NCBI RefSeq assembly: GCF_009668025.1
Contig: NZ_WJXZ01000006.1
Location: 186,001 to 250,000, forward strand
Reading direction: 5' to 3'
Source: Larkinella terrae
GTDB taxonomy: Bacteria > Bacteroidota > Bacteroidia > Cytophagales > Spirosomataceae
Length of the DNA: 64,000 nucleotides
Shown here: one piece after another, positions 26,575 through 40,019 of the stretch
Position numbering within the stretch: the stretch's first letter is position 1
Layout of the letters: each line of letters begins with the position of its first letter
Notes under the pieces: generated by a model
Told to the model about the DNA's origin: nothing
The model's database searches: none
Seen by the model: only the letters and a program-made list of their open reading frames with translations
Made by a program: the position numbers and the translations under genes

Positions 26575-28200
26575 TTATTGTTTGGTATAAAACGGATCGA
26601 GGAACAAATAACGAGCTCTGTTTGTCTCCGTTTCAAGCCGGGTGTTGACGTCAATCTGCATAAACTGAACGCTGTTCCCGTTGTTGATGGCGGGCCATTT
26701 GGGCAGTCCTGCTCCATTGGGATTACCGGTTTTTACGAAATTGGCGAAATAATCCTGCATAATTGCCGAAACTTTGTGATCATCGGGAGTCCAGGCGTAT
26801 ACCTTGTTTTTCGAAAGATTCCCCATCGCATACTCAATTTCGGCGGAATGGACAGCCCCGCGAGCAGGCGGTATTTTAACCGCATTCGCATCCGTTGATT
26901 TCACCACTCCACCCGCCAGACCGGGCGCTGCATTCCCCATTTCGGGCGTCATCGCGGGGCGGGGCCGCGAATAATAATAGCGATACACCGGTTTTCCGCC
27001 CCCGGTTTTACTTTGTAAATCCGCCCACTTCCAGGTGCTGTACGCCAGAAAACGGTCGCCCGCCAGCGCTGTGGCCGATTGCAGAATTTCTTCTTCCGTC
27101 GAACCCGGATACAGTTTTAAAACCTCGTCGGCGCGGTCCTGATACAGTTTTTTTACCGCATTGGCGTAGTTCTCGGGCGTTGGTTTTTCCTGCCCCAGCA
27201 CGGCGCGCGCGTTCATTTCTTCCGAATTCCAGCCCGCCAATAAGGGTACATGCGCCTGTTCACCCGCCGTAAAAATTTCCATTGGCGGTTTGGGGAAAAA
27301 ATAACCGTCGACGGTTGCACTAAACCGGGGCGCACCGGATTTTCCGGTGGCTTCAAGCAACTGATCGGCAGGCATGGCCCGCATTTCCGCCAGCGAATTG
27401 GCGCCGACAAACTTTGCAAAACCGTTGCCCGTTTCTTCGCCTTTCGCCAGCGGAACGGGCGGCAATCCACCGAGCAGGGAGCCGCTTTCACCAATGGCCC
27501 CGGCAATCAGTCCTTTCGACAGGGGAGACGCCATCAGACCGCTGACCGCAATCGACCCGGCCGACTCTCCGGCAATAGTTACACGGTTGGGATCGCCCCC
27601 AAATGCCGAAATGTTCTGCTTTACCCACCGGAGGGCGGCCGCCATGTCCAGATAGGCGTAATTTCCCGACGAATGGTTGGGTGATTCTTTTGTCAATTCA
27701 GGATGCGCCAGAAAGCCGAATACGCCCAGCCGGTAGTTGACGGTCAGCGCAACCATGCCTTTTCCTGCCATGCTTTCGCCGTCGTAACGACCTTCTGAAC
27801 CATCACCCGCGATAAAACCGCCCCCGTAGAAATACACCAAAACCGGCAATTTTTCTTTGGCAGACTTCGCGGGCGTCCACACATTTAAGTAAAGGCAGTC
27901 TTCGCTCATGCCATCCGAGCGGAAACCCATATCGCCAAAAACCGCGCGCTGCATGGCTCTCGGGCCAAATTTGTCGGTTTTCCGAACGCCCTGCCAGTTC
28001 TTGACGGGCTGCGGCTCCTTCCAGCGCAGCTCACCAACGGGCGGCTGAGCAAACGGAATGCCTTTGAAGGCACGTATCCCACTGGGCTCCAGAACGCCCT
28101 CAACCTCACCATTGGCGGTTTTGGCTTTTGGCGCCGTCTGGGCACTCGCAAAATGAGTAAACTGAATACTTAATGCGGCCAGAATTAATAGCGTTTTCAT
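26575..28200 (-). CDS. secreted carboxylesterase type B
   Basis: 541 residues from the ATG at 28200, which opens a Sec signal peptide (MKTLLILAALSIQFTHFASA); an open in-frame extension to 28260 is rejected. Alpha/beta-hydrolase of the carboxylesterase-B family with nucleophile S213 in GESAGS, oxyanion GGG at 126-128 and the SEDCLYLN signature at 99-106. It hydrolyses esters in the periplasm or outside the cell; in this phylum such enzymes often deacylate polysaccharides or xenobiotic esters. No operon partner. Upstream lies a REP-like doublet. Confidence 0.93.
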   Translation of the reverse strand: MKTLLILAALSIQFTHFASAQTAPKAKTANGEVEGVLEPSGIRAFKGIPFAQPPVGELRWKEPQPVKNWQGVRKTDKFGPRAMQRAVFGDMGFRSDGMSEDCLYLNVWTPAKSAKEKLPVLVYFYGGGFIAGDGSEGRYDGESMAGKGMVALTVNYRLGVFGFLAHPELTKESPNHSSGNYAYLDMAAALRWVKQNISAFGGDPNRVTIAGESAGSIAVSGLMASPLSKGLIAGAIGESGSLLGGLPPVPLAKGEETGNGFAKFVGANSLAEMRAMPADQLLEATGKSGAPRFSATVDGYFFPKPPMEIFTAGEQAHVPLLAGWNSEEMNARAVLGQEKPTPENYANAVKKLYQDRADEVLKLYPGSTEEEILQSATALAGDRFLAYSTWKWADLQSKTGGGKPVYRYYYSRPRPAMTPEMGNAAPGLAGGVVKSTDANAVKIPPARGAVHSAEIEYAMGNLSKNKVYAWTPDDHKVSAIMQDYFANFVKTGNPNGAGLPKWPAINNGNSVQFMQIDVNTRLETETNRARYLFLDPFYTKQ

Positions 28201-28235
28201 GCTGTTTCGTTTAGGTAAAATGGAGCCGTGCCGCC

Positions 28236-28335
28236 GACTTGTAGCCCGAAAGCGGGCCACTGCAGGCTGGGCCGCGGGTCCATTTCCTGAAAGGAAAATT
28301 CACCTCACCATCTACCGGCTTTCTCGCTACAAGTT
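28236..28335. repeat. REP-like doublet with GTAG foot
   Basis: 18-bp arms at 28236-28253 and 28318-28335 are inverted copies with 15 of 18 matches. The left unit has GTAG directly before a CCCG-aaa-GCGGG hairpin, the layout of REP sequences served by RAYT transposases. Total length 100 bp. The rest of the 398-bp gap between the esterase and the response regulator (28201-28598) holds the TTAGAA pair at 28513-28529 and otherwise nothing recognisable. Confidence 0.55.
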
Positions 28336-28512
28336 ATCGGTCAAAGTTCTTCGCTAGGCCAACTGCCTGAAAAACTGTCGTTTTCAAAAAAGGACTCCAT
28401 ACCCGTGCCGGAATTATGGGTTTGATTATTAAAAATGGCATCGTTTCCCGGAAACCGGCGGTTTTTCGGTTCCGAAACCTTCGGATAAGCGTTGAAACCA
28501 TAGATTCCAAGA

Positions 28513-28529
28513 TTAGAATACCCTTAGAA
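28513..28529 (-). promoter_or_regulatory. two reverse TTCTAA boxes 11 bp apart before the response regulator
   Basis: TTAGAA at 28513-28518 and 28524-28529 are the complement of the hexamer that forms the arrays at 30781, 36504 and 36793, with the same 11-bp spacing. Their position 70 bp before the regulator start suggests autoregulation, but no box at the 17-bp distance is seen on the minus strand. Confidence 0.4.
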
Positions 28530-28598
28530 ATACCGGTTCCTGAAACCGCTTTGGTAAATTATGACGTTATTTTGGTAATCGTCCTGAACCGAAGCCGT

Positions 28599-29288
28599 AT
28601 GAAAACCATTCTGATCGTTGAAGATGACCGCCGGATCGCCCAGAACATCAGCCGGGGCTTATTGGAAGAGGGATACCAGACGGAGGTGGCTTACGAAGGC
28701 TACAACGGCCGGGATCTGGCGTTGCGGCAACCGTTCGACCTGATTATTCTCGACATTAATTTGCCCGGTTTGAACGGTTACGAAGTCTGCCGGAACATTC
28801 GCGCCGAAAAACCGCACCTTCCGATCATCATGCTGACAGCACTGGGTGAAATTGAAGACAAGGTGGAAGGACTGGAACGTGGCGCCGACGATTATTTGGT
28901 AAAGCCATTCGATTTCAGGGAGTTAAATGCCCGGATTGCCGCCTGCTTCCGACGCGCTGATCTGCTGGATAAAACCGTGGCCGACGAAGTGCTGCGGATT
29001 TCCAACCTAGAAATCAATATTTCTACCAAGCAGGTCAAACGGGCGGAAATTCCGATCGACCTGACCGCGCGCGAGTTTGCACTGCTTGAATACCTGGTGC
29101 GGAACCGTGGGCGAGTGGTTTCCAAAATGGATCTGGCCGAGAAGGTCTGGAGCCTGAATTTTGATCCCGGTACGAACGTCGTTGAGGTGTATATCAATTA
29201 CTTACGCAAAAAAATCGACCGGGATTTTGAGCCAAAACTGATTCACACCCGCGCCGGAATGGGCTATGTGTTAAAAGTAGAGTCGTAA
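28599..29288 (+). CDS. OmpR-family response regulator (CusR-like)
   Basis: 229 residues from ATG 28599 (MKTILIVEDD); the frame is open to 28416 but that extension lacks family similarity. Receiver domain with the acidic pair E8/D9-D10, phosphoacceptor D52, T80 and K102 all present, then a C-terminal OmpR/PhoB winged helix (about 130-228). The kinase gene starts one base after the stop. The regulator and kinase sit directly before a heavy-metal RND operon, as in CusRS/CzcRS systems, and it is the best candidate to bind the 11-bp-spaced TTCTAA arrays, since this family binds direct repeats with that period. Confidence 0.92.
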   Translation: MKTILIVEDDRRIAQNISRGLLEEGYQTEVAYEGYNGRDLALRQPFDLIILDINLPGLNGYEVCRNIRAEKPHLPIIMLTALGEIEDKVEGLERGADDYLVKPFDFRELNARIAACFRRADLLDKTVADEVLRISNLEINISTKQVKRAEIPIDLTAREFALLEYLVRNRGRVVSKMDLAEKVWSLNFDPGTNVVEVYINYLRKKIDRDFEPKLIHTRAGMGYVLKVES

Positions 29289-29289
29289 G

Positions 29290-30657
29290 ATGAAGATCAG
29301 AAACCGGATCGCACTTCAATTTTCACTCATCGTAGCCACGATCTTACTCGTTTTTTCGGTGGTCATTTATTTTACGACGGCCACCTACAGCCGCGACGAT
29401 TTCTACGATCGGCTGAAAAGTAAGGCACTGACGACCGCCCGGTTTTTGATTCAGGTGAACGAAGTTGACCGCAATCTGCTGAAAATCATCGACCGGAATA
29501 CCCTTACGGCCCTGTACGACGAAAAAGTGCTGGTTTTTGATGAAAACAACCGACTGATTTACGCCAGCGTCGATGATCATATCATTCATTATCAGCGCAG
29601 TTTGCTCAACGAGGTCCGGCAGTTGAAGGAGGTCGAGACCTGGAGCGACGAAAACCAGCTGGCCGGTATTTTATACGAAGAGGGTGGCCGGAAACTGGTG
29701 GTACTGGCGTCGGCGAATGACCGCGTGGGCCGGAACAAACAGAAAAATCTCGGCATTACGCTCGTCTGGGGGCTTCTGGGTGGGATCAGTGTGACGATCG
29801 GTTTGGGGATTTTCTTCGCCGGGCAGTCGCTCGAGCCCATCGACGAAATCAATTCCCAGGTTTCGACTATTACGGCGCGGAACCTGCGGCAGCGTCTCGA
29901 CGAGGGCGACCGGCGTGACGAAATCGATCAGTTGGCGGTCAATTTTAATGCGGTTTTGGGGCGGCTCGAGCAGGCTTTCGAGCAACAGCGCAGCTTTGTT
30001 TCCCACGCTTCGCATGAACTTCGCACGCCGTTGGCCGCGCTCAAATCCGAAATACAACTCGGGTTGCGTCGTCCTTTGAAAACCGCTGAGTATGAAACTA
30101 TTCTGACCAATCTCTTATCGGATACGGACCGACTGATTGGCCTGACCAACAGTTTGTTGTTTCTGGCCCGAACGCTCGAAAACATCAGCCAGATGCCGCT
30201 GGAACCGGTGCAGATGGAGGAAGTGGTGTTGCTGGCGCGGGACGAGTTGCTGAGTGCCAAACCCGACTACCGGATTGAGTTTGACTACGACAATTTACCC
30301 GGATCGGAAACGGAAACGACGGTTTCCGGTAATGAAGAACTGCTGAAGCGGGTTTTGCTCAACCTGATGGACAATGCCTGTAAATATTCCGCCAACCATA
30401 CGGCCCGCGTCCGCATCCGGACCGACAGCCGCTCGTGTTGGGTGAGCGTGCGCGATCAGGGAATCGGGATGTCGCCGGAAGATGCTGTCCTCATTTTTGA
30501 ACCTTTTTACCGCACTTCCAATGCCGTTGGTTACGACGGTTTTGGCATTGGTCTCTCCATTAGCCAGCGGATCATCGAACTGCATCAGGGCCAGATTTCG
30601 GTCGAAAGCGAGTTGAACGCAGGCAGTCAGTTTACCATCCAATTAGCTCATTTGTAA
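29290..30657 (+). CDS. sensor histidine kinase (CusS-like)
   Basis: 455 residues: TM1 about 9-30, a periplasmic sensor of about 125 residues, TM2 about 156-178, HAMP (about 179-232), HisKA with H242 in SHASHELRTPLAAL, and a HATPase domain with N-box (NLMDNACKYS), G1 (VRDQGIGMS) and G2 (GFGIGLSI). Complete and probably functional. It would pair with the response regulator just upstream. The periplasmic part has no obvious metal-binding Cys/His cluster, so the stimulus is inferred only from the pump operon that follows. Confidence 0.93.
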   Translation: MKIRNRIALQFSLIVATILLVFSVVIYFTTATYSRDDFYDRLKSKALTTARFLIQVNEVDRNLLKIIDRNTLTALYDEKVLVFDENNRLIYASVDDHIIHYQRSLLNEVRQLKEVETWSDENQLAGILYEEGGRKLVVLASANDRVGRNKQKNLGITLVWGLLGGISVTIGLGIFFAGQSLEPIDEINSQVSTITARNLRQRLDEGDRRDEIDQLAVNFNAVLGRLEQAFEQQRSFVSHASHELRTPLAALKSEIQLGLRRPLKTAEYETILTNLLSDTDRLIGLTNSLLFLARTLENISQMPLEPVQMEEVVLLARDELLSAKPDYRIEFDYDNLPGSETETTVSGNEELLKRVLLNLMDNACKYSANHTARVRIRTDSRSCWVSVRDQGIGMSPEDAVLIFEPFYRTSNAVGYDGFGIGLSISQRIIELHQGQISVESELNAGSQFTIQLAHL

Positions 30658-30780
30658 GGATCAGAAATGGGTTCTGGCTCAAAAGTTACGGGTTTATAAA
30701 AACCGGTATGATCTGCTGCATGGAAAGCAAGTTTCTGAAAATCAGAAGAATACAGTCAATATTAGGGCCGATTAGAAAAC

Positions 30781-30860
30781 TTCTAAGTTTTTTTTAACGG
30801 CTATTTAACCTTTTTCTAATTCGCTTTTAACGGCCTTCTAACTTCTTTTAGGCAATCTTG
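30781..30860 (+). promoter_or_regulatory. iteron promoter 1: TTCTAA array driving the tolC-cusBA operon
   Basis: Six hexamers start exactly every 11 bp: TTCTAA 30781, TTTTAA 30792, ATTTAA 30803, TTCTAA 30814, TTTTAA 30825, TTCTAA 30836, and a weaker TTTAGG at 30847. CAATCTTG (30853-30860), a TTTG-like -7 box, begins 17 bp after the start of the sixth. The last full unit therefore occupies the -33 position, as expected for an activator of the PhoB/OmpR type. Confidence 0.75.
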
Positions 30861-30887
30861 CATTCCGAAATGTGCTAACCTTTTTTA

Positions 30888-32141
30888 ATGCGCCTGATAT
30901 TTAGTTTTTGTTTGATTGGCCTGATTTCTATCCACGTTCAGGCACAGGATTCGTTACGACTTAGTCGACGGCAGGCCGACAGCCTTTTTCTCAAAAATAA
31001 CCTCTTGCTGCTGGCCGGGCGGTTTCGGATCGAAGCCGGACAAGCGCAGATCATCCAGGCGAATTTGTACGATAATCCCACGGCCTTGCTCGAAGTCAGT
31101 GCTTACAATACGGAACAGCATCGGGTTCTGGATGCAGGGCGGCAGGGGCAGAAAATTATCTCCGTTCAGCAACTTTTGTATACCGCCGGGAAACGCAACA
31201 AGCGCGTGGCGCTGGCGCAGGAATCGGCCCGACTTAACGATTACGAGTTCGCAGATCTGCTCCGGTCCCTGCGGTTTGAACTCCGGAGCCGGTTTTTCGA
31301 TCTGTATTTCCAGCAGGAAACGCTGGCCCGCTACGACCGCCAGATCACGACCTTACAGGGAACCGTAACGGCTTTTGAACAACAGTACGACAAAAATAAC
31401 GTGTCGCTGCGTGAACTCCTCCGGCTGAAAGCGCTACTGTTTCAACTCAATAACGACCGACTGGAAATCCGGCTCAACCAGGCTGAAAACCAGCAGTTTT
31501 TGCGAACCCTGCTGTCGGTTGAGCAGCCGATTCTGCCGCAGGTCGATGAAACACAATTGCAAATTTACCGCTTTCCGAACGAATCGGTCGACTCGCTACG
31601 CAGCCGGGCGCTTCACCACCGGGCCGACGTGCTGGCCAACCAGTCGCTCACCCGGCAGGCGGAACTGAACTACAATCTGCAAAAAGCGCTGGCAACGCCG
31701 GACCTGCGGGTGGGCGGAACCTACGATCAGGCCGGGAGCTACGTTCCCAATTACCTCGGTGTTTCGGTGAGCATGGATTTGCCGTTTTTCAACCGGAATC
31801 AGGGGGCCATCAAAGCCGCCCGCAGCCAGATCGATTATCAGAAGCAGATCCAGAGTCAGAAAGCCGTTCAGGTTGGTAATGAGGTCATTGCGGCCTTGCA
31901 GAAAGTCCGGGAAGTAGAGCGGACGGTGCAGTCGGTCGAGTCGCGGTTTTCGGAACAATTTGAGCTGCTGAATCAGGGGTTGTTTACCAATTTCCAGAAA
32001 CGGAACATTTCCCTGCTGGAATTCATCGACCTGATCGAGACGTACAACGAAAGCACCAAAGAACTGAACCGCCTGAAAGCCGACCGCATCGGCGCCTACG
32101 AAGAACTGAACTACGTGGTGGGGGAGGAATTATTTAATTAA
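30888..32141 (+). CDS. TolC-family outer-membrane channel
   Basis: 417 residues with a signal peptide (1-19, cut near VQA-QD). Long amphipathic helices with the internal duplication of TolC-like proteins, for example ARSQIDYQKQIQSQKAVQVGNEV in the second half. It forms the trimeric outer-membrane exit duct for the adaptor and pump encoded next (7 bp and 134 bp gaps). It may also serve the channel-less HAE pump at 11778-16148. Transcription is predicted to start just upstream at the iteron promoter. Confidence 0.92.
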   Translation: MRLIFSFCLIGLISIHVQAQDSLRLSRRQADSLFLKNNLLLLAGRFRIEAGQAQIIQANLYDNPTALLEVSAYNTEQHRVLDAGRQGQKIISVQQLLYTAGKRNKRVALAQESARLNDYEFADLLRSLRFELRSRFFDLYFQQETLARYDRQITTLQGTVTAFEQQYDKNNVSLRELLRLKALLFQLNNDRLEIRLNQAENQQFLRTLLSVEQPILPQVDETQLQIYRFPNESVDSLRSRALHHRADVLANQSLTRQAELNYNLQKALATPDLRVGGTYDQAGSYVPNYLGVSVSMDLPFFNRNQGAIKAARSQIDYQKQIQSQKAVQVGNEVIAALQKVREVERTVQSVESRFSEQFELLNQGLFTNFQKRNISLLEFIDLIETYNESTKELNRLKADRIGAYEELNYVVGEELFN

Positions 32142-32148
32142 CTATCCA

Positions 32149-33231
32149 ATGAAACAACTCGTTAGCTGCGTGCTGCTGGGAACACTCGGGCTGGCAACGG
32201 CTTGCCATCAGAAAGCAGAAGTAGAAGAGGCTAAGGCATTTATGATGTCGGACACGATGATGAATCGCATCCGGCTCGACACAGTGCTGAACCAGCCGGT
32301 TCGCTCTGAACTGACGCTGGTGGGGAAAGTAGCCGCCGACGAAAGCAAGGTCATTAAAGTATTCCCGCTGGTGGGCGGGGTCGTGGAGGAAGTGGACGTC
32401 GAACTGGGTGACTTTGTGAAAAAAGGCCAGCAACTGGCAATTATCCGGTCGGGCGAAGTGGCTGATTTTGAACGGCAAATGATTCAGGCGCAATCGGATC
32501 TGCTGCTGGCGCAAAAGAACCTGAGTGTGGCCGAGGATCTGTTTGAGAGCAAATTGAACTCGCAGCGCGAGGTGGTCGCGGCCCGCAAAGACGTAGAAAC
32601 CGCCCAGGCCGAACTCAGCCGTGTAAAGGAAATTTTCCAGATTTATGGTTTGGGCAAAACGCCGACGTACACGGTTCGCGCGCCAATCGACGGTTTTGTG
32701 ATCGAAAAAAACGTTAACCGGGACATGCAACTGCGGTCCGATAACGCCGACAACCTGTTCACCGTCGGCCAGATCAGCGACGTCTGGGTGCTGGCCAACG
32801 TCAACGAAAGCGACATCGGCCGGGTGAAAGCCGGAATGCCCGCCAGCGTTCAGACGCTGAGCTATCCCGACCAGCGGTTCAACGGAAAAGTCGATAAGAT
32901 TTTCAGCGTGCTCGACCCCGGTACCAAGGCCATGACGATCCGGATTCGGTTGCAGAACGAAGGCATGAAGCTCAAACCGGAGATGCACGCGACGGTGGCG
33001 CTGCGGTTTGATGAGGGCGATCAAATGGCCACGGTTCCGTCTAACGCCGTTATTTTCGATAATTCGAAATACTACGTCATGGTTTTCCGCAGCCGTTCCG
33101 ACGTCGAAACCCGCCCGGTTCAGGTGCACAAATTTCTGGGAGACATCGCCTACATCAACGCCGGTTTGAAACCGGGTGAAAAAGTCATCTCGAAGAACCA
33201 GCTTCTGGTTTACGACGCACTAAACGATTAA
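32149..33231 (+). CDS. CusB/CzcB-like RND adaptor lipoprotein
   Basis: 360 residues with a lipoprotein signal (LATAC, Cys19). Membrane-fusion architecture: barrel strand, lipoyl half (VGGVVEEVDVELGDFVKKGQ, near 72-91), helical hairpin, second lipoyl half (YTVRAPIDGFVIEKNVNRD), beta-barrel and C-terminal membrane-proximal domain. There is no His-rich C-terminal extension. It couples the CusA-like pump to the TolC-like channel. It starts 7 bp after tolC. Confidence 0.92.
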   Translation: MKQLVSCVLLGTLGLATACHQKAEVEEAKAFMMSDTMMNRIRLDTVLNQPVRSELTLVGKVAADESKVIKVFPLVGGVVEEVDVELGDFVKKGQQLAIIRSGEVADFERQMIQAQSDLLLAQKNLSVAEDLFESKLNSQREVVAARKDVETAQAELSRVKEIFQIYGLGKTPTYTVRAPIDGFVIEKNVNRDMQLRSDNADNLFTVGQISDVWVLANVNESDIGRVKAGMPASVQTLSYPDQRFNGKVDKIFSVLDPGTKAMTIRIRLQNEGMKLKPEMHATVALRFDEGDQMATVPSNAVIFDNSKYYVMVFRSRSDVETRPVQVHKFLGDIAYINAGLKPGEKVISKNQLLVYDALND

Positions 33232-33237
33232 TTAGTG

Positions 33238-33343
33238 AATGAGTGATTGAGCGACGGGGCCGCCCGCGCGGTGAGTGAATAAGATCGAAGATCACGCTTA
33301 TTAATTTGTAGAACTGCGGTAGCTATTCACTCAATCACTCATT
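33238..33343. repeat. inverted repeat with a GC-rich palindromic insert
   Basis: The right arm at 33324-33343 is the exact complement of the left arm once bases 33252-33275 are removed from the latter. The removed block is a 21-bp GC-rich palindrome-bearing segment (core GACGGGGCCGCCCG) plus a repeated GAG (33249-33251 and 33273-33275). The same 14-base core occurs at 63728-63741 in an unrelated repeat. Lies inside the efflux operon between the adaptor and pump genes. Confidence 0.65.
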
Positions 33344-33365
33344 CGCTCATTCACTCATTGGAAGC

Positions 33366-36300
33366 ATGAACAGATTTATCCGGAATATTGTCGGTTTTTC
33401 GCTTAAAAACCGGTTTTTCATCTTCTTCATGACCACCGCGCTGATCATTGCCGGGGTGGTCAGCTATTTGAATACCCCGCTCGAAGCATTTCCCGACGTG
33501 ACCAACACGCAGATTATCGTCGTGACGGAGTGGAATGGCCGGAGTGCCGAAGAAGTTGAGCGGTTTGTAACCGTGCCGATTGAAGTGGCCATGAACTCGG
33601 TGCAGCGCAAAACCAACGTTCGTTCGATCACGATGTTTGGGTTGTCGGTCATCAAAATCATTTTTGAAGACGATGTGGAAGACTTTTTTGCCCGGCAACA
33701 GGTTAATAACCAGTTACGTACCGTCACGCTTCCCGAAACCGTCGAGCCAGATGTGCAGCCGCCGTACGGCCCAACGGGCGAGATTTTCCGGTTTACACTC
33801 CAAAGTCAAACGCGCGACAGCCGCGAACTGCTGACGTTGCATAACTGGGTGATCGACCGGCAGTTGCGGTCCGTTCCTGGTGTGGCCGATGTGGTGGCGT
33901 TTGGCGGACAGGAAAAAATCTACGAAATCCGGGTGAATCCGACCCAACTGACCAAGTACGATCTGACTCCCCTTGAAGTTTACCAGGCTATCACGCGCAG
34001 TAACATCAACGTCGGGGGCGATGTCATCGAGCGCAACGGGCAGGCGTATGTCGTGCGGGGCGTGGGGTTACTCACGTCGATTCCTGATATTGAAAACATC
34101 ATTATTGAAGAGCTGAACGGCAACCCGGTTTTGGTGCGCAACGTGGCCGAAGTGGCCGAATCGAGTCTGCCCCGGGTGGGTCAGGTCGGTTTAAACAACA
34201 ACGACGACGTGGTGGAAGGCATCGTGGTGATGCGCAAAGGTGAAAATCCGAGCGAAATTTTAAAGCGGGTGAAGGACAAAATCGACGAGCTGAACACCCG
34301 GATTTTGCCCGCCGATACCAAAATGGTGACTTTCTACGACCGCGACAACCTCATCGCGTTCTGTACCCGCACCGTGATGCACAACCTGACCGAAGGGATC
34401 ATTCTGGTGACGGTGATCGTCTTCATTTTCATGGCCGACTGGCGGACCACGATCATCGTTTCGATCATCATTCCGCTGGCGCTGCTGTTCGCATTCATGT
34501 GCCTTCGGTTGCGCGGGATGTCGGCCAATTTGCTGTCGATGGGCGCGGTTGACTTCGGGATCATCATCGACGGAGCCGTCGTGATGGTCGAAGGGGTTTT
34601 TGTAACGCTCGATCATCTGGCGCATAAAAAAGGTATGCCGGCCTTTAACCGCATGTCCAAACTCGGGCTGATAAAAAAAACCGGGGGCGATCTCGGGAAA
34701 GCGGTTTTCTTCTCCAAACTGATCATTATCACGGCGTTGCTGCCCATTTTTTCGTTCCAGAAAGTGGAAGGAAAGATGTTCTCCCCGCTGGCCTGGACGC
34801 TCGGTTTTGCCCTGCTCGGCGCTTTATTATATACGTTGACGCTGGTGCCGGTTCTGTGTTCGATCCTGTTGCGGAAAAACGTTCGGGAGACCAACAACTT
34901 CGTTGTCCGGTTTTTCAACAATTCCGTAACGGCCGGTTTTGAATGGTGTTACGCGCGCAAGCGGCTGAGCTTTTTGCTGGCAACGGTTTTCCTGGGCGTT
35001 ACTTTTTTCTCAGCCACCCTGCTCGGAACCGAGTTTTTACCCCAACTGAACGAAGGGGCTTTGTGGGTGGAAGCCAAACTGCCGATGAGTTCCTCGCTGA
35101 GTGAAACGACGAAAATGGTGCGCGTACTTCGCAAGAAACTGATGGAATTTCCGGAAGTCAACGGCGTATTGTCGCAAACCGGTCGCTCCAACGACGGAAC
35201 CGATCCGTCCGGTTTTTATTACGTTCAGATGCAGGTCAACCTGAAACCCAAAGACGACTGGCAGCGGAAGATTTCGACCGATGAGCTGATCGAGGAAATG
35301 GACGGCAAACTCAAACAGTTTCAGGGCATTAACTACAATTATTCGCAGCCGATTATCGACAACGTGGCTGAAGCTGTGGCCGGGATGAACGCGTCCAATG
35401 CCGTCAAGATTTTCGGCGAAGACCTCAACCAGCTCAACGGCCTGGCCAACGAGGTGATTGCCGCCATCAAGGACGTGCCGGGGATCAAGGATGTCGGTAT
35501 TCTGCGAAACATCGGTCAGCCTGAAATTAGTGTCTTGTTTCACGATCATAAAATGGCGTTGTACGGGGTTTCAACGGCTGACGCTCAGGCGGTTATTGAG
35601 ATGGCAATCGGCGGCAAAACCGCTTCCATTCTGTACGAAGGTGAACGCCGGTTCGACATCCGGTTGCGGTACGCCGAGAATTACCGGAAAACCGAAGATG
35701 ACATCATGCGGCTCATGGTGCCGACCATGCACGGCAGCAAAATTCCGCTCAGCGAAATTGCCACCCTGCGTAAAACCACCGGCCCGGCTTTCATTTATCG
35801 CGACCTGAACAAGCGATTTATTGGCGTCAAATTCTCGGTTCGGGAGCGTGATCTGGGCAGCACGATTGCCGAAGCGCAGCAGAAAGTGGAGCAGAAACTG
35901 AAGAAACTGCCCAAGGGGTATTCCATCAACTGGACCGGCGAATTTGAGAATCAGGTGCGGGCCACGCAGCGGCTCGGGCAGGTGGTTCCGCTGAGTCTGG
36001 CGGCTATTTTCGTTATTCTGTTCATTACGTTCGGCAATCCGAAAGACGCGGGATTGGTGCTCCTGAACGTGCCGTTTGCGCTCATGGGCGGTATTCTTGC
36101 GCTGCACGTGACCGGGATCAACTTCGGGATTTCGGCGGGCGTCGGTTTTATCGCCCTGTTCGGAATCTGCGTCCAGAACGGGGTGATTCTCGTATCGGTT
36201 TTTAACCAGAACCGGGCCGATCGGCAACCGCTCGATGAAGCCATCCGGCAGGGTGTTCGGAGCCGGATTCGGCCGGTGGTCATGACCGCCCTGATGGCGG

Positions 36301-36503
36301 CCATTGGCTTGCTGCCCGCGGCCGTCTCGACCGGTATTGGTTCCGAAACCCAAAAACCGCTCGCGGTGGTCGTCATTGGCGGTTTGATTACGGCCACGAT
36401 CCTGACGCTGCTCATATTCCCGATTCTGTACCGTTATTTTTACCGTAAAGCCGAATCGGAAGCCAAACCCTGGCGACGCCAGCCGCAGGTACTGGAAAGT
36501 TAG
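33366..36503 (+). CDS. heavy-metal RND efflux pump (CusA/CzcA-like)
   Basis: 1045-residue inner-membrane pump of the HME-RND class. TM4 has the metal-type signature D396-F-G-x3-D402-G-A-V-V-M-V-E409, which separates CzcA/CusA pumps from the DD-type drug pumps such as the one at 12975-16148. It exports mono- or divalent metal ions from periplasm or cytoplasm through the adaptor and TolC homologue. Methionine pairs for Cu/Ag were not convincingly located, so the metal is open. Its stop codon (36501-36503) abuts the next iteron promoter. Confidence 0.94.
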   Translation: MNRFIRNIVGFSLKNRFFIFFMTTALIIAGVVSYLNTPLEAFPDVTNTQIIVVTEWNGRSAEEVERFVTVPIEVAMNSVQRKTNVRSITMFGLSVIKIIFEDDVEDFFARQQVNNQLRTVTLPETVEPDVQPPYGPTGEIFRFTLQSQTRDSRELLTLHNWVIDRQLRSVPGVADVVAFGGQEKIYEIRVNPTQLTKYDLTPLEVYQAITRSNINVGGDVIERNGQAYVVRGVGLLTSIPDIENIIIEELNGNPVLVRNVAEVAESSLPRVGQVGLNNNDDVVEGIVVMRKGENPSEILKRVKDKIDELNTRILPADTKMVTFYDRDNLIAFCTRTVMHNLTEGIILVTVIVFIFMADWRTTIIVSIIIPLALLFAFMCLRLRGMSANLLSMGAVDFGIIIDGAVVMVEGVFVTLDHLAHKKGMPAFNRMSKLGLIKKTGGDLGKAVFFSKLIIITALLPIFSFQKVEGKMFSPLAWTLGFALLGALLYTLTLVPVLCSILLRKNVRETNNFVVRFFNNSVTAGFEWCYARKRLSFLLATVFLGVTFFSATLLGTEFLPQLNEGALWVEAKLPMSSSLSETTKMVRVLRKKLMEFPEVNGVLSQTGRSNDGTDPSGFYYVQMQVNLKPKDDWQRKISTDELIEEMDGKLKQFQGINYNYSQPIIDNVAEAVAGMNASNAVKIFGEDLNQLNGLANEVIAAIKDVPGIKDVGILRNIGQPEISVLFHDHKMALYGVSTADAQAVIEMAIGGKTASILYEGERRFDIRLRYAENYRKTEDDIMRLMVPTMHGSKIPLSEIATLRKTTGPAFIYRDLNKRFIGVKFSVRERDLGSTIAEAQQKVEQKLKKLPKGYSINWTGEFENQVRATQRLGQVVPLSLAAIFVILFITFGNPKDAGLVLLNVPFALMGGILALHVTGINFGISAGVGFIALFGICVQNGVILVSVFNQNRADRQPLDEAIRQGVRSRIRPVVMTALMAAIGLLPAAVSTGIGSETQKPLAVVVIGGLITATILTLLIFPILYRYFYRKAESEAKPWRRQPQVLES

Positions 36504-36561
36504 AATTAACTTTTTTCTAAGACGGCTCTAAGCATTTTCTAATTTGACGGCTCCTTCTTTG
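36504..36561 (+). promoter_or_regulatory. iteron promoter 2: TTCTAA array downstream of the pump gene
   Basis: Hexamers every 11 bp: AATTAA 36504, TTCTAA 36515, CTCTAA 36526, TTCTAA 36537; CTTCTTTG (36554-36561) begins 17 bp after the last. Same geometry as the promoters at 30781 and 36793. No gene of normal size follows before the terminator at 36748. Confidence 0.7.
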
Positions 36562-36783
36562 TACCGGGAACGTCGGAAGCAGAATCAGCCTCCTGCTCCG
36601 GTTTGCTTATTGAGATAATAGATAGGAGAGGTGAGGCAAGAGACGAAGATGGTTGATTTTCAGGCCTTTATTCTCGCGTCTCTGGTCTTTTATCTCAATG
36701 CAATAGAAGGTTTTGGCGAGTAAAATTGCTAATTTCAGGTGATTTCGATAGCCGGTTACGTCATGGAAACCGGCTATTTTTTT
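36562..36783 (+). ncRNA. candidate small RNA between iteron promoter and terminator
   Basis: About 215 bases lie between iteron promoter 2 and a strong terminator. They hold a partially self-complementary segment (left arm about 36609-36650, right arm about 36672-36702) and no convincing gene; the only frame, 24 codons from 36649, overlaps the stem. A transcript that is induced with the pump operon would be a structured small RNA, or a decayed copy of the neighbouring unit (36793-37210), which has the same promoter and terminator type but encodes a protein. Confidence 0.4.
36748..36783 (+). terminator. intrinsic terminator of the candidate small RNA
   Basis: Perfect 10-bp stem ATAGCCGGTT / AACCGGCTAT (36748-36757 and 36768-36777), 10-base loop, then a run of seven T. 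The same stem sequence recurs at 37178-37204. Confidence 0.85.
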
Positions 36784-36792
36784 GCCTAAAAA

Positions 36793-36850
36793 TTCTAATT
36801 TTTTTCTAATCGCCGTCTAAGGGTTATTTAAACTGACTACCCCATCTTTG
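36793..36850 (+). promoter_or_regulatory. iteron promoter 3: TTCTAA array before a 57-residue gene
   Basis: Hexamers every 11 bp: TTCTAA 36793, TTCTAA 36804, GTCTAA 36815, ATTTAA 36826; CATCTTTG (36843-36850) begins 17 bp after the last. It starts directly after the preceding terminator and lies 38 bp before the ATG at 36889. Confidence 0.72.
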
Positions 36851-36888
36851 CGGTAAGACTATCCCACATTTAACCTCATTAACTGAAC

Positions 36889-37062
36889 ATGTCCTGGTTT
36901 GAATATAGCAAGTGTGTATTGAATAAAGTTGATTTTGACCGACGATTATTCCGCAAGGAATTACGTAAACTGCTGCGGCTGCTTTCTCACCCGGAACGAC
37001 TGCAATTGCTTCAATGGTGCCGCCAGCAGGTTAAACGAAAAAGGGTGGTTCTGAATACATAG
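36889..37062 (+). CDS. 57-residue basic cytoplasmic protein
   Basis: Starts MSWFEYSKCVLNKVDFDRRL and continues as a highly basic helical peptide (RKELRKLLRLL; KRKRVVLN at the end), with no signal or membrane segment. Similar 55-65-residue proteins with a W-x-x-Y/F-x-K-x-V-L start occur in Cytophagales by my recollection, without known function. It is preceded by iteron promoter 3 and followed by its own terminator, so it forms a monocistronic unit predicted to respond to the same regulator as the metal pump. Its charge suggests nucleic-acid or protein binding, which is speculation. Confidence 0.65.
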   Translation: MSWFEYSKCVLNKVDFDRRLFRKELRKLLRLLSHPERLQLLQWCRQQVKRKRVVLNT

Positions 37063-37177
37063 AAATGAACGGTAAGACCGAAGAGTAGAGCTGTAAAATA
37101 CCGTAAGTCTTTATTCTCCTGTCTCATTTCTTTTCTCTGATTGTGTGTTTTCTTTAGCGTTTTAGGTAGAAAGGGAG

Positions 37178-37210
37178 TAGCCGGTTCGTGAAAAGGACCG
37201 GCTATCTTGT
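37178..37210 (+). terminator. intrinsic terminator of the 57-residue gene
   Basis: TAGCCGGT (37178-37185) pairs with ACCGGCTA (37197-37204), followed by TCTTGTT. The stem matches the terminator at 36748, supporting a tandem origin of the two units. The 115 bases between the stop codon and this site contain weakly self-complementary T/C-rich DNA. Confidence 0.65.
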
Positions 37211-37251
37211 TAACGATTGACTGGGCGCGTTTTAACTAAAACCGTAGTATC

Positions 37252-37647
37252 ATGCAGTTAAAAAACAATCTTATTTTTATCGTTGATGACGACGATGATG
37301 ACCGGTTTATGCTGTGGCAGGCGTTTCAGAAAAAACACCCCGGTTGTCTGGTATTCACGTTTACGGACGGGCAGGAATTGCTGGATCACCTGAGCGAGTA
37401 TTACGACACACCCGACCTGATAATTCTCGATCAGAACATGCCGGTCATGGACGGTTTTACGACCTTAAAACGCTTGAAAGGAAGTAGCCGACTCCGGTCG
37501 ATACCCACCGTGATCCTCGGTTCTTCATTCGAAACGAACGACAACTGCCGTGGTCATGAACTCGGTGCGGATGCGTTGCTTACAAAGCCAACCCGGTACA
37601 GCGAACTGGTGCAACTGGCGAATCAAATGTTTTCGGCCAGCGCCTGA
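37252..37647 (+). CDS. stand-alone receiver-domain response regulator
   Basis: 131 residues comprising only a receiver: acidic cluster DDDDDD at 12-17, phosphoacceptor D60 (IILDQNMPVMDG), S91 in place of the usual Thr, and K112 (LLTKP). No output domain, so it acts through protein interaction, like CheY- or phosphorelay-type receivers. The very common Bacteroidota 'response regulator' class with this N-terminus is usually paired with orphan hybrid kinases. It lies after the metal-efflux locus but has no iteron array of its own. Confidence 0.88.
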   Translation: MQLKNNLIFIVDDDDDDRFMLWQAFQKKHPGCLVFTFTDGQELLDHLSEYYDTPDLIILDQNMPVMDGFTTLKRLKGSSRLRSIPTVILGSSFETNDNCRGHELGADALLTKPTRYSELVQLANQMFSASA

Positions 37648-37679
37648 TTTTGTCGCGTTATTCGGTTGCTGAAGCCTTT

Positions 37680-40019
37680 TTACTTCAACGGCAACGATAG
37701 TTTCACCACCTGCTGATTGCGAATTACGGAAACGTTCATGCGTCCCGTCCAGGTAACCTGCTGCTGAATGGCCACCAGCCGCCCGATGTTGGGGGTCTCT
37801 TCCTGGTTGGCCGTTCGGATTACATCACCGGTTTTCAGACCCGAATTTTCGAGCAGGCTACCGGCCGGGATGTTTACCACAATAATGCCGTTTTCGTCGG
37901 GTAAACCGTAGGCCGACCGGTCGCCGAGGCCGCGTACGTTTCGGAGCAAAGCACCCAGCCAGGTCAGCTCCTGCACGGATTTTTCAAACTGCTGATCCAA
38001 CAAAACCGGTAGTTTGGGCGTGCGGGCCAACGCTCGGAGAGCGGTTTTTTGGACCCCAAACTGATTCATCGGAAAATTCTGAAAACCTATTTTCAGCGCG
38101 GGACTGCTGGCCCGAACCTGATAATTTCCCTTTTCCGGCTGAACGAAAACCGGGTCGCCAAAGGTGCTGTGGAAGTCGGTGCCGTCTTTCTGCGCTTTCA
38201 GCAGAGCGCCCTCATCGGGAAACAGATTGTAATCAACTTCCTTGCCCCAATCCTGAACGCCAATCGGAAAATAAGACCGCATGACGATGTTGTTCCGGAA
38301 AACGTCCCCGCTGTTTTTGAACCAGACGTGTGGATGGAATGAGTTGTTAATCAGGATGTTATTTTGGGCAGTGCGGTTAAAGCCTTCCCGGAACTTCAAT
38401 CCGCCGTTTAGCAGCACATTGTTGTAGATGAGGTAATTACTGCTGCCATCGTCGAGGTCGATATCCCAGCCGTGGTCGCAACGAAACCGGTTGTTGCGAA
38501 TGATTGTGGTTTTTTGGGCGTCGATCAGAATCAGTTCGGGATGAGCCGCCACCAGGCTGTCCATTTTGGAGCGGTTGGGATGCCAGTACCGATCGCGACC
38601 CCAGGAGTTGAACGCGCCGTGATCACCGGTTTCCAAAACCGTATCGAACACGTCGTTGAATTCCAGCAGGTGACCGCCCCAGGTGCCGTCGCCGATGTTG
38701 ATGCCAGCGCGGGGAACCTGATAAATGGAATTATGCCGAACGACAATCCCGGAAGCCATTGCAATCTGAACCCCCGCCGACTGTTTTTCAATGCGCCCGA
38801 TATCGTGAATCAGGTTATTCTCCGCGACGCATTCCAATGGATAGTGGTTGTTTTTCGGACCCGGTTTCAGATCCATCTGATCATAAGGCACAAACTGTTC
38901 GTACCGAAAAGCCGGAGAGCGAACCGCCGATGAATCGCCGATAAAACTGATGGCGCTGGCGCCAATTTCGAAGAAGTGCGAACCTTCGACAGCTGATTTT
39001 CGATTATATCGACTGAAAATCAGCGCATTTCCGCCCAGATTGCTAAACTGACAATCTTCAATCTGGCAGTTTTCGGTATTTTCCAGAAAAACCGCTGCGC
39101 CCCGGTACATCATCCAGTCGCTGCGTAACAGCGGCTCGTATGGCTCCATAAACGTCCGTTCGGTCTGAACAAACCGGATGCCGCGAAGGGTGACCTGCCG
39201 AAGTGGTTTATCCGGTGTCCCGTTTAAAGCAATTAGTCCCTTGAGTTGGGAAACCTCGACGATGGCGGTTGTCGGATTGACGCCGGTTGGCGGAATCAGG
39301 TGAAGCTGTTGGGTCTTTCTGTCGTAAAACCACTCGCCGGGCGCGTCCATTTCCTCAAAAATGTTCTCGACAAACCGCTCTTTGGCGTGCAGGGGCGAAG
39401 GGCGGTTATTCTGCCAGCCGCCTTCCAGCTGAAGTTTTCCATCCGATTTGCCGGTAATCCGGTAATGAAAATCCCCCCATTCGCCTTCGTGCAGGGCGTG
39501 GACATAACCGCCTTCGGGCGATTGCCAGCCATTGATTCGGGCTTCGCTCAGCGCGTCGGCGGCTGTGCCGTTAAAAACCCTGGCGCGGGCGTCGAAATTG
39601 GGATAACGGGCCAGAATCTGCTTTTTCCCGTTTAGAAAGAGTTGCTCGAAAACCGGCCCTTCGACGGGGGCCGTCCAACGGGCCTGACCGGTTTTCTGCC
39701 AGCGAAGCGACAACCTCCTACCTCCGCTGATCTGAACGGTTTCGTTGGGGAAGTTGCTAATGGTCAGGGTTTTATTCTGAACCAGTTCCGGGTCGATGCG
39801 GATGGTTTCTGTCAGGTAATACGTGCCTTTTCGTAAAAAAATCTGGACGGCAGGCTGGGGCGCGGTTTTTACTTTTTCCAGCGCTTTGGCCAGCGTGGCC
39901 AGTGGCAGCGAAACGGTTCCGGGGTTGCTATCTTTCCCCGACGGCGCGACGTAAAACCGGCTTTGCGCCCGGACAGTCAGGGAAGTGCCGACAAGAAAAA
40001 ATAGCAACCATCGGAGCAT
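37680..40019 (-). CDS. secreted right-handed beta-helix protein with C-terminal PDZ domain
   Basis: 779 residues with a signal peptide (1-18, cut near VRA-QS). The start of the mature region, FYVAPSGKDSNPGTVSLPLA, is the classical entry to pectate-lyase-like parallel beta-helix enzymes, and repeated turns with N-x-I/F-x-x-N ladders run from about 280 to 640. The last 85 residues form a PDZ-like domain (GSLLENSGLKTGDVIRTAN). Proteins of this kind are polysaccharide lyases, epimerases or glycosidases acting on uronate- or galactose-containing glycans; the activity here is unknown. Last gene of a minus-strand sugar cluster, 34 bp after the isomerase. Confidence 0.82.
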   Translation of the reverse strand: MLRWLLFFLVGTSLTVRAQSRFYVAPSGKDSNPGTVSLPLATLAKALEKVKTAPQPAVQIFLRKGTYYLTETIRIDPELVQNKTLTISNFPNETVQISGGRRLSLRWQKTGQARWTAPVEGPVFEQLFLNGKKQILARYPNFDARARVFNGTAADALSEARINGWQSPEGGYVHALHEGEWGDFHYRITGKSDGKLQLEGGWQNNRPSPLHAKERFVENIFEEMDAPGEWFYDRKTQQLHLIPPTGVNPTTAIVEVSQLKGLIALNGTPDKPLRQVTLRGIRFVQTERTFMEPYEPLLRSDWMMYRGAAVFLENTENCQIEDCQFSNLGGNALIFSRYNRKSAVEGSHFFEIGASAISFIGDSSAVRSPAFRYEQFVPYDQMDLKPGPKNNHYPLECVAENNLIHDIGRIEKQSAGVQIAMASGIVVRHNSIYQVPRAGINIGDGTWGGHLLEFNDVFDTVLETGDHGAFNSWGRDRYWHPNRSKMDSLVAAHPELILIDAQKTTIIRNNRFRCDHGWDIDLDDGSSNYLIYNNVLLNGGLKFREGFNRTAQNNILINNSFHPHVWFKNSGDVFRNNIVMRSYFPIGVQDWGKEVDYNLFPDEGALLKAQKDGTDFHSTFGDPVFVQPEKGNYQVRASSPALKIGFQNFPMNQFGVQKTALRALARTPKLPVLLDQQFEKSVQELTWLGALLRNVRGLGDRSAYGLPDENGIIVVNIPAGSLLENSGLKTGDVIRTANQEETPNIGRLVAIQQQVTWTGRMNVSVIRNQQVVKLSLPLK

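Follow-up and report, generated by a model that had tools for sequence, protein, structure and literature searches.

Tandem TTCTAA-like hexamers at an 11-bp period as putative operators of CusR/CzcR-like response regulators in Larkinella terrae

The window analysed here, a 64,000-nucleotide stretch of the Larkinella terrae genome (contig NZ_WJXZ01000006.1), carries an efflux locus with three arrays of TTCTAA-like hexamers, each followed at a fixed distance by a box of the type TAnnTTTG, the -7 element of Bacteroidota promoters (Table 1). These arrays are very probably tandem operators for the neighbouring CusR/CzcR-like regulator of the OmpR/PhoB family and for its close paralogues, as judged from sequence comparisons. 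The evidence consists of the presence of the arrays, their 11-bp phase, a preferred spacing to the box, conservation among relatives and linkage to one clade of regulators. Related regulators in other Bacteroidota are accompanied by arrays of this layout, which is therefore probably the binding code of these regulators.

Within each array, the hexamers read in order TTCTAA, TTTTAA, ATTTAA, TTCTAA, TTTTAA and TTCTAA (array 1), AATTAA, TTCTAA, CTCTAA and TTCTAA (array 2, whose first base directly follows the stop codon of the RND pump gene) and TTCTAA, TTCTAA, GTCTAA and ATTTAA (array 3). The boxes, CAATCTTG, CTTCTTTG and CATCTTTG, are imperfect with respect to TAnnTTTG and start 17 bp past the start of the last hexamer (30836 to 30853, 36537 to 36554 and 36826 to 36843, respectively). 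A preliminary description of the window had reported six, four and four such hexamers at 30781, 36504 and 36793 with an 11-bp period, and reading the sequence bears this out. Its distance of 17 bp holds for all three promoters; the TTTG that it assigned to every box does not, since CAATCTTG has CTTG, and its hexamer types fit array 2 in general except for the first hexamer, AATTAA.

In the L. terrae genome, the arrays accompany a defined group of regulators. Seven, including that of the window, score 233-254 bits against the NCBIfam profile TIGR01387, and each of them lies at most 1.7 kb from an array with a score of 20 or more. The array is the next element after the kinase gene in six of the seven systems, in three of which the kinase stop codon lies inside the first hexamer; in the system C12a it sits between regulator and kinase, and C20 has an additional array upstream of its regulator. 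The eighth- and ninth-best regulators of the genome (219 and 185 bits) have no array, and six more distant OmpR-family loci yield one array-like site (20.1), without a correctly placed box. As no regulator of the genome exceeds the TIGR01387 cut-off (the profile is the best NCBIfam match of the window's regulator, 245.8 versus 279.2 bits), the seven are termed CusR/CzcR-like rather than members. They have in common the recognition helix TN-[VF]-[VI]-[DE]-VY-[IV]-[NS]-[YF]-LRKK; the corresponding helix of the eighth regulator is SNVIEVHIYQLRKK. Three TTCTAA at 11 bp with at most two mismatches occur eight times in the genome, versus one match of the reversed pattern; three of the eight are those of the window, and none of the eight is more than 7.6 kb away from one of the seven regulators. 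An exact search for three YTAA units with a YTTG box gives seven matches versus one in the control, again with three from the window and six within the same distance of such a regulator.

The arrangement is conserved. Arrays 2 and 3 are kept in eight of eight aligned same-genus loci (the own and seven others), in which hexamers and boxes are constant and spacers drift. Box 2 is C[TA]nnTTTG in all eight (the own locus included), 11 bp past the hexamer end, and box 3 is CATCTTTG in seven, CATATTTG in one and CATCTTTA in a ninth same-genus genome (G007, L140). The orthologous six-hexamer array 1 is present in the four same-genus loci looked at (L159-L162), each with box 1 at the same place as CAATCTTG, GAATCTTG or GAACCTTG, such that CTTG is kept. 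At greater distance, a scan of genome contigs by homology to the regulator was followed up for 80 of at least 596 stretches, with phylum labels taken from the titles of the records: arrays are found at five of eight Bacteroidota-labelled loci versus one of 72 others, and the latter has no box. The five are those of a Cyclobacteriaceae metagenome-assembled genome (MAG), Runella limosa, Neolewinella aurantiaca, Mucilaginibacter sp. and Dyadobacter alkalitolerans; the array lies behind the kinase gene in the first four and before a divergent outer-membrane efflux gene in the last. The preliminary description had proposed an OmpR/PhoB-type operator with an 11-bp phase and activation from the -35/-33 position; the phase is indeed conserved in the genus, and the geometry recurs across genera beside the same regulator/kinase family.

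An alternative is that a single master regulator, either a paralogue or an unrelated protein, controls all arrays and that the adjacent regulator is not the binder. Cross-binding is plausible because the hexamer consensus is nearly identical at most paralogous loci, and several sites could be served by one regulator. Such an arrangement is improbable, however: each of the seven regulator genes is accompanied by an array of its own close by; the same-genus loci of the window, C7, C12a, C12b and C1a paralogues also carry arrays; the Runella, Neolewinella, Mucilaginibacter, Dyadobacter and Cyclobacteriaceae MAG loci, which were fetched by regulator homology, have an array nearby; and C20 combines a TTTAA-rich array variant with a slightly different helix.

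In a set of 60 distinct arrays scoring at least 22, taken from own and related loci with close relatives included, the distance from the last hexamer to the start of TTTG is 15 bp in 27 arrays, 26 bp in six and 27 bp in three, and any other offset between 0 and 39 bp occurs at most twice. The 26-bp class corresponds to this geometry with one hexamer left out, placing the box one 11-bp repeat further. In the phylum, the pattern YTAA-N7-YTAA-N7-YTAA-N11-TANNTTTG, which mixes hexamer classes, has 47 matches in 41 of 395 genomes, versus nine for the reversed pattern and three (in three genomes) when N11 is replaced by N14. Thirty of the 47 matches were examined as loci: 12 are YTAAT-type, eight TTAAC-type and ten other, and the eight loci that have a relative of the own kinase or outer-membrane factor within 1.5 kb, one of them the own genome, are all YTAAT-type. 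In same-genus stretches, TTTG at +15 or +26 is found in 20 of 29 system-adjacent arrays versus 0 of 12 elsewhere (Fisher p 5e-5), in a tally by hand that counts L316, which has a 35% receiver-like match, as elsewhere; counted as adjacent, it changes the figures to 20 of 31 versus 0 of 10. Ten same-genus loci (L301, L303, L306-L310, L314, L316 and L317) have the same hexamers without a box at fixed distance and none of these two-component systems within the fetched 5 kb.

The box spacing bears on a further explanation, according to which the repeats are sites of a repressor or nucleoid protein, or 11-bp-phased A-tract elements of curved DNA that need no specific regulator. AT-rich helically phased repeats do resemble curved DNA, and some hexamers retain just TAA. 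However, TTCTAA is not an A-tract, the repeats are rare away from the systems (one triplet at 11 bp in 860 kb of own background, with 0-4 at other periods), none of the 12 same-genus arrays elsewhere has the box spacing, and the preferred distance, together with a second class exactly 11 bp further, points to contact of a protein with RNA polymerase; an origin of this kind is therefore very unlikely.

The period itself was compared with controls. A matrix made from 30 hexamers of arrays elsewhere in the own genome, outside the window, ranks arrays 1-3 top among the 4-hexamer sites of the 64 kb (36.1, 32.6 and 30.7; next 12.9), whereas its best score in the window at periods of 9, 10, 12 and 13 bp is 18.7 and 60 order-1 Markov replicas of 28001-38000 reach no more than 16.9. 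The 30 hexamers have other letters than those of the window; the test is not wholly independent, because their source arrays were located with the window's matrix. A sample of 1.23 Mb of own genome, chosen in part around such regulators, has 16 triplets scoring at least 20 at a period of 11 bp, versus 0-4 for every other period between 7 and 16. The seven own sequences with array-bearing regulators account for 13 triplets at 11 bp, including two box-less sites in L011, and at most one at any other of these periods, and the six other OmpR-family loci of the genome for one versus at most one. This grouping took 56 of 61 own sequences; among those left out, L015 has one array (24.2), L013 one site (18.6), and L014, L061 and L062 none of at least 16. 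Two further sets were picked by protein and not by DNA pattern: the 30 loci picked by the 57-aa protein encoded behind array 3 give 28 triplets at 11 bp versus at most two at other periods, and the 80 loci picked by regulator have six versus at most one. Arrays are thus not equally frequent in random DNA, and the preliminary description stands on this point; the fixed period of about 11 bp is that of the direct-repeat operators of the OmpR/PhoB family. Chance AT-rich repeats, although intergenic regions are AT-richer than genes and plain TTCTAA matches come near the control in the order's distant genomes, are practically out of the question given the period and spacing controls of the window and the conservation within the genus.

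Several observations weigh against operators of this one regulator clade. Some concern the samples. The sets L099-128, L159-178 and L301-320 were chosen by or around the 11-bp pattern, and consequently only protein-chosen sets test the phase; among the latter, the set with 28 triplets includes close relatives and the window's own locus. A plain search for three TTCTAA at 11 bp (two mismatches, overlapping matches counted apart) yields 103 matches versus 5 reversed in eight other genomes of the genus, 105 versus 43 in 28 further genomes from the family, and 45 versus 31 in 22 genomes of the order's other families: the plain pattern is clear in the genus and present in the family, and beyond the family it is not separable from chance. 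Only eight of 30 plain-search loci have such a kinase within 1.5 kb, and 22 of the 30 phylum loci are without such a kinase or efflux neighbour within that distance. Others concern the sites: the L012 and L011 sites have their box at 28-29 bp instead of 17, two paralogous sites (L009) have poor boxes, and TTTG stands at the expected place in only three of the five named loci of other genera. The three remaining Bacteroidota-labelled loci, L223, L224 and L232, have no array despite the same or nearly the same helix, and similar helices in other phyla are likewise without arrays (e.g. L229 and L246); a recognition-helix code was rejected on these grounds, since the helix alone does not predict an array. 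Finally, sequence alone gives no pairing of arrays with individual members of the seven paralogues.

Tandem operators of the neighbouring regulators could act in the following manner: In response to an inducing signal, the regulator would be phosphorylated, and its monomers would line up head to tail along one face of the DNA, each on its own TTCTAA-like hexamer and 11 bp from the next. The final monomer would occupy the position of the -33 element, with the TAnnTTTG-type -7 box 17 bp further downstream, and may there recruit the housekeeping sigma factor; it is this placement of the last hexamer over the -33 region, given the -7 box, that suggests class II activation. From the predicted transcription starts, three outputs would be switched on in the window: (i) the outer-membrane/adaptor/RND efflux operon; (ii) a short non-coding RNA that ends in a terminator; and (iii) the 57-aa protein, perhaps also the receiver protein encoded behind it.

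The array code is not metal-specific, because arrays also precede AcrB-type RND, antiporter-like and SulP genes. In the own genome, the genes that follow them encode CusA-type, AcrB-type and OEP-RND pump sets at L011, L060 and L010, respectively, a Proton_antipo_M protein at L059, both a 102-aa protein and a SulP transporter at L012, and a receiver protein at L015. The compact metal-responsive regulon of the preliminary description is accordingly not upheld: the arrays lie beside seven paralogous two-component systems, several of which adjoin genes other than metal exporters. The L015 array (C6, at L015:2326) comprises four hexamers before a receiver-only gene, and none of the seven regulators is encoded in that 20-kb stretch.

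Promoter 2 appears to drive a conserved non-coding RNA, which the preliminary description had missed. The candidate ends in a conserved 3' block (about 36725-36783) with an intrinsic terminator (stem 36748-36757/36768-36777, T run 36778-36783). Only open reading frames (ORFs) of 24-30 aa occur in 36562-36785, and an 8-locus same-genus alignment, judged by eye, shows no conserved ORF behind the promoter. The block is present in single copy in nine of nine same-genus genomes and in none of 50 others, and no Rfam match is found up to E 1 in 36400-37300. The fold of the candidate has a z of -4.46, and the terminator stem pairs in 90 of 90 cells, with double changes in two pairs; as 30 of 500 shuffles perform equally well, the double changes are weak support on their own. 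In G007, the RNA, an array and a CATCTTTG box with the same spacing lie directly behind a kinase-like frame with no pump between (by eye), an arrangement that links the RNA with the regulator and not with the operon. In a search of nine genomes with the complement of a conserved 20-mer of the RNA (at most three mismatches), the RNA locus itself is matched exactly in seven, and ten other sites occur at three mismatches versus two for the reversed pattern; three of the ten (L330, L331 and L332) are one sequence kept in three sister genomes. Elsewhere in the own genome, on the minus strand of L009:9213-9418, a terminator-like stem comes after an array at 9418, and that strand has no ORF of at least 60 aa there; this region is a candidate for a second RNA, linked to a different two-component system.

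The genes around the arrays comprise the two-component system, the efflux operon and the ORFs of the 57-aa and receiver-domain proteins. The window's regulator consists of a receiver and a winged-helix DNA-binding domain, and its kinase scores 209 bits against TIGR01386, under the cut-off of 292.55. The RND pump belongs to TIGR00914 by score; its DFGxxxDG motif may resemble that of CzcA-type divalent-metal pumps. Between adaptor and pump genes (33230-33359) lie 25-nt inverted repeats of TGAGTGAATGAG-like units, 84-88% complementary, a possible hairpin that could influence pump expression. Promoter 3 appears to drive the 57-aa protein, relatives of which are found in 131 of 150 family genomes. 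Many of the 131 have two copies; the family has no known domain, and within the genus one copy has 68-93% identity and the other about 45%. The receiver protein is perhaps co-regulated with the 57-aa ORF: its gene lies at most 1.5 kb from that ORF in six of eight other same-genus loci (G005 and G007 being the exceptions), and a terminator-like stem stands between the two in the window at about 37177-37205.

Table 1. Positions of arrays, boxes and genes in the window
Feature	Position	Strand	Remarks
OmpR/PhoB-type response regulator, presumed array binder	28599..29288	+	Pfam Response_reg and Trans_reg_C
Sensor histidine kinase	29290..30657	+	Pfam HAMP, HisKA, HATPase
Array 1, presumed efflux-operon promoter	30781..30841	+	six hexamers, starts 30781 + 11n; read from sequence
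-7-type box CAATCTTG of promoter 1	30853..30860	+	read from sequence
Outer-membrane efflux protein, OEP/TolC family	30888..32141	+	Pfam OEP
Periplasmic adaptor, CusB/HlyD family	32149..33231	+	Pfam HlyD_D23; TIGR01730 above cut-off
RND pump, CusA/CzcA heavy-metal family	33366..36503	+	TIGR00914, 950.7 bits, cut-off 701.45
Array 2	36504..36542	+	four hexamers, starts 36504 + 11n; read from sequence
-7-type box CTTCTTTG of promoter 2	36554..36561	+	read from sequence
Candidate non-coding RNA	36562..36785	+	start inferred from box; variable body, conserved 3' block
Array 3	36793..36831	+	four hexamers, starts 36793 + 11n; read from sequence
-7-type box CATCTTTG of promoter 3	36843..36850	+	read from sequence
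57-aa protein	36889..37062	+	no Pfam or NCBIfam match
Stand-alone receiver-domain protein	37252..37647	+	Pfam Response_reg

To our knowledge, little is known about how activators act at the unusual sigma factor of Bacteroidota. The geometry rule would permit the prediction of efflux and stress regulons from sequence, and it raises the question of whether seven regulators with near-identical helix and operator avoid cross-talk or exploit it. A broader picture, which is tentative and rather doubtful as a whole, would be that a Bacteroidota clade of efflux/envelope-stress regulators reads one shared tandem code, kept by seven paralogues in one cell, that other PhoB-type regulators use this geometry with different hexamers, and that promoter 2 and the L009 array are each the source of a short non-coding RNA with a terminator at its end, linked to the respective two-component system. 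Of all single elements, the candidate RNA is the most novel, and an array-driven RNA adjoining an efflux operon is a ready target for knock-out. The preliminary description had called the operator previously undescribed: operators of 11-bp direct repeats are an old kind, and for the hexamer, copy number, coupling to the -7 box and use by paralogues no description was found in open-licence PMC papers, among the matches listed.

Among known systems, the E. coli Pho box takes the place of the promoter -35 element. The arrays differ from PhoB and PhoP operators in the TTCTAA-like hexamer, in their three to six copies and in the Bacteroidota TAnnTTTG box, which is not a sigma-70 -10 box. They resemble the sites of Mycobacterium tuberculosis PhoP, which are 11-bp direct repeats of a 7-bp motif and a 4-bp spacer; proteins of the OmpR/PhoB family occupy direct repeats as head-to-tail tandem dimers with strict spacing, and the affinity of PhoP is higher for three or four repeats than for two (PMC4832192). 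Proteobacterial CusR, CzcR, CopR and AgrR are the nearest regulator subfamily by profile (TIGR01387), and there, too, a two-component system controls a CusA/CzcA operon. In contrast to the arrays, AgrR binds the inverted repeat ATKACA-N4-TGTMAT, some operators adding an in-phase direct repeat (PMC7380067). A palindrome of the AgrR/CusR type, with two half-sites 4 bp apart, is not found on reading the arrays of the window, in each of which the hexamers share one orientation. Many proteobacterial homologues have the helix VA[IV][RK]RLR, whereas the window's regulator has VYINYLR; VY..YLR helices are also present in other phyla.

The -7 box resembles the published consensus of the Bacteroidota sigma-ABfr promoters (-33 TTTG, -7 TAnnTTTG), and for Flavobacterium johnsoniae a -33 motif could not be found (PMC7366714); in the arrays, the last hexamer takes the place of the -33 element. 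Another likeness is to putative PhoB-type boxes of Bacteroidota itself: TTAACATT repeats at eight of the 30 phylum loci have the same 11-bp period and the same distance to TAnnTTTG, and they differ from the window's arrays in the hexamer, presumably being bound by another regulator. At these TTAAC(ATT)-repeat loci (L195, L196, L200, L202, L203, L205, L206 and L208), the repeats precede a PBP_like_2 (PstS-like) protein and a Porin_O_P (phosphate-selective) porin in L202 and L208 and a TonB-receptor-like gene (Pfam) in L203, with similar proteins by eye in L205 and L206; they are possibly a Bacteroidota Pho box. Since the TTAAC(ATT) loci keep both period and box distance, the geometry seems to be common to PhoB-type activators across the phylum, and specificity may reside in the hexamer.

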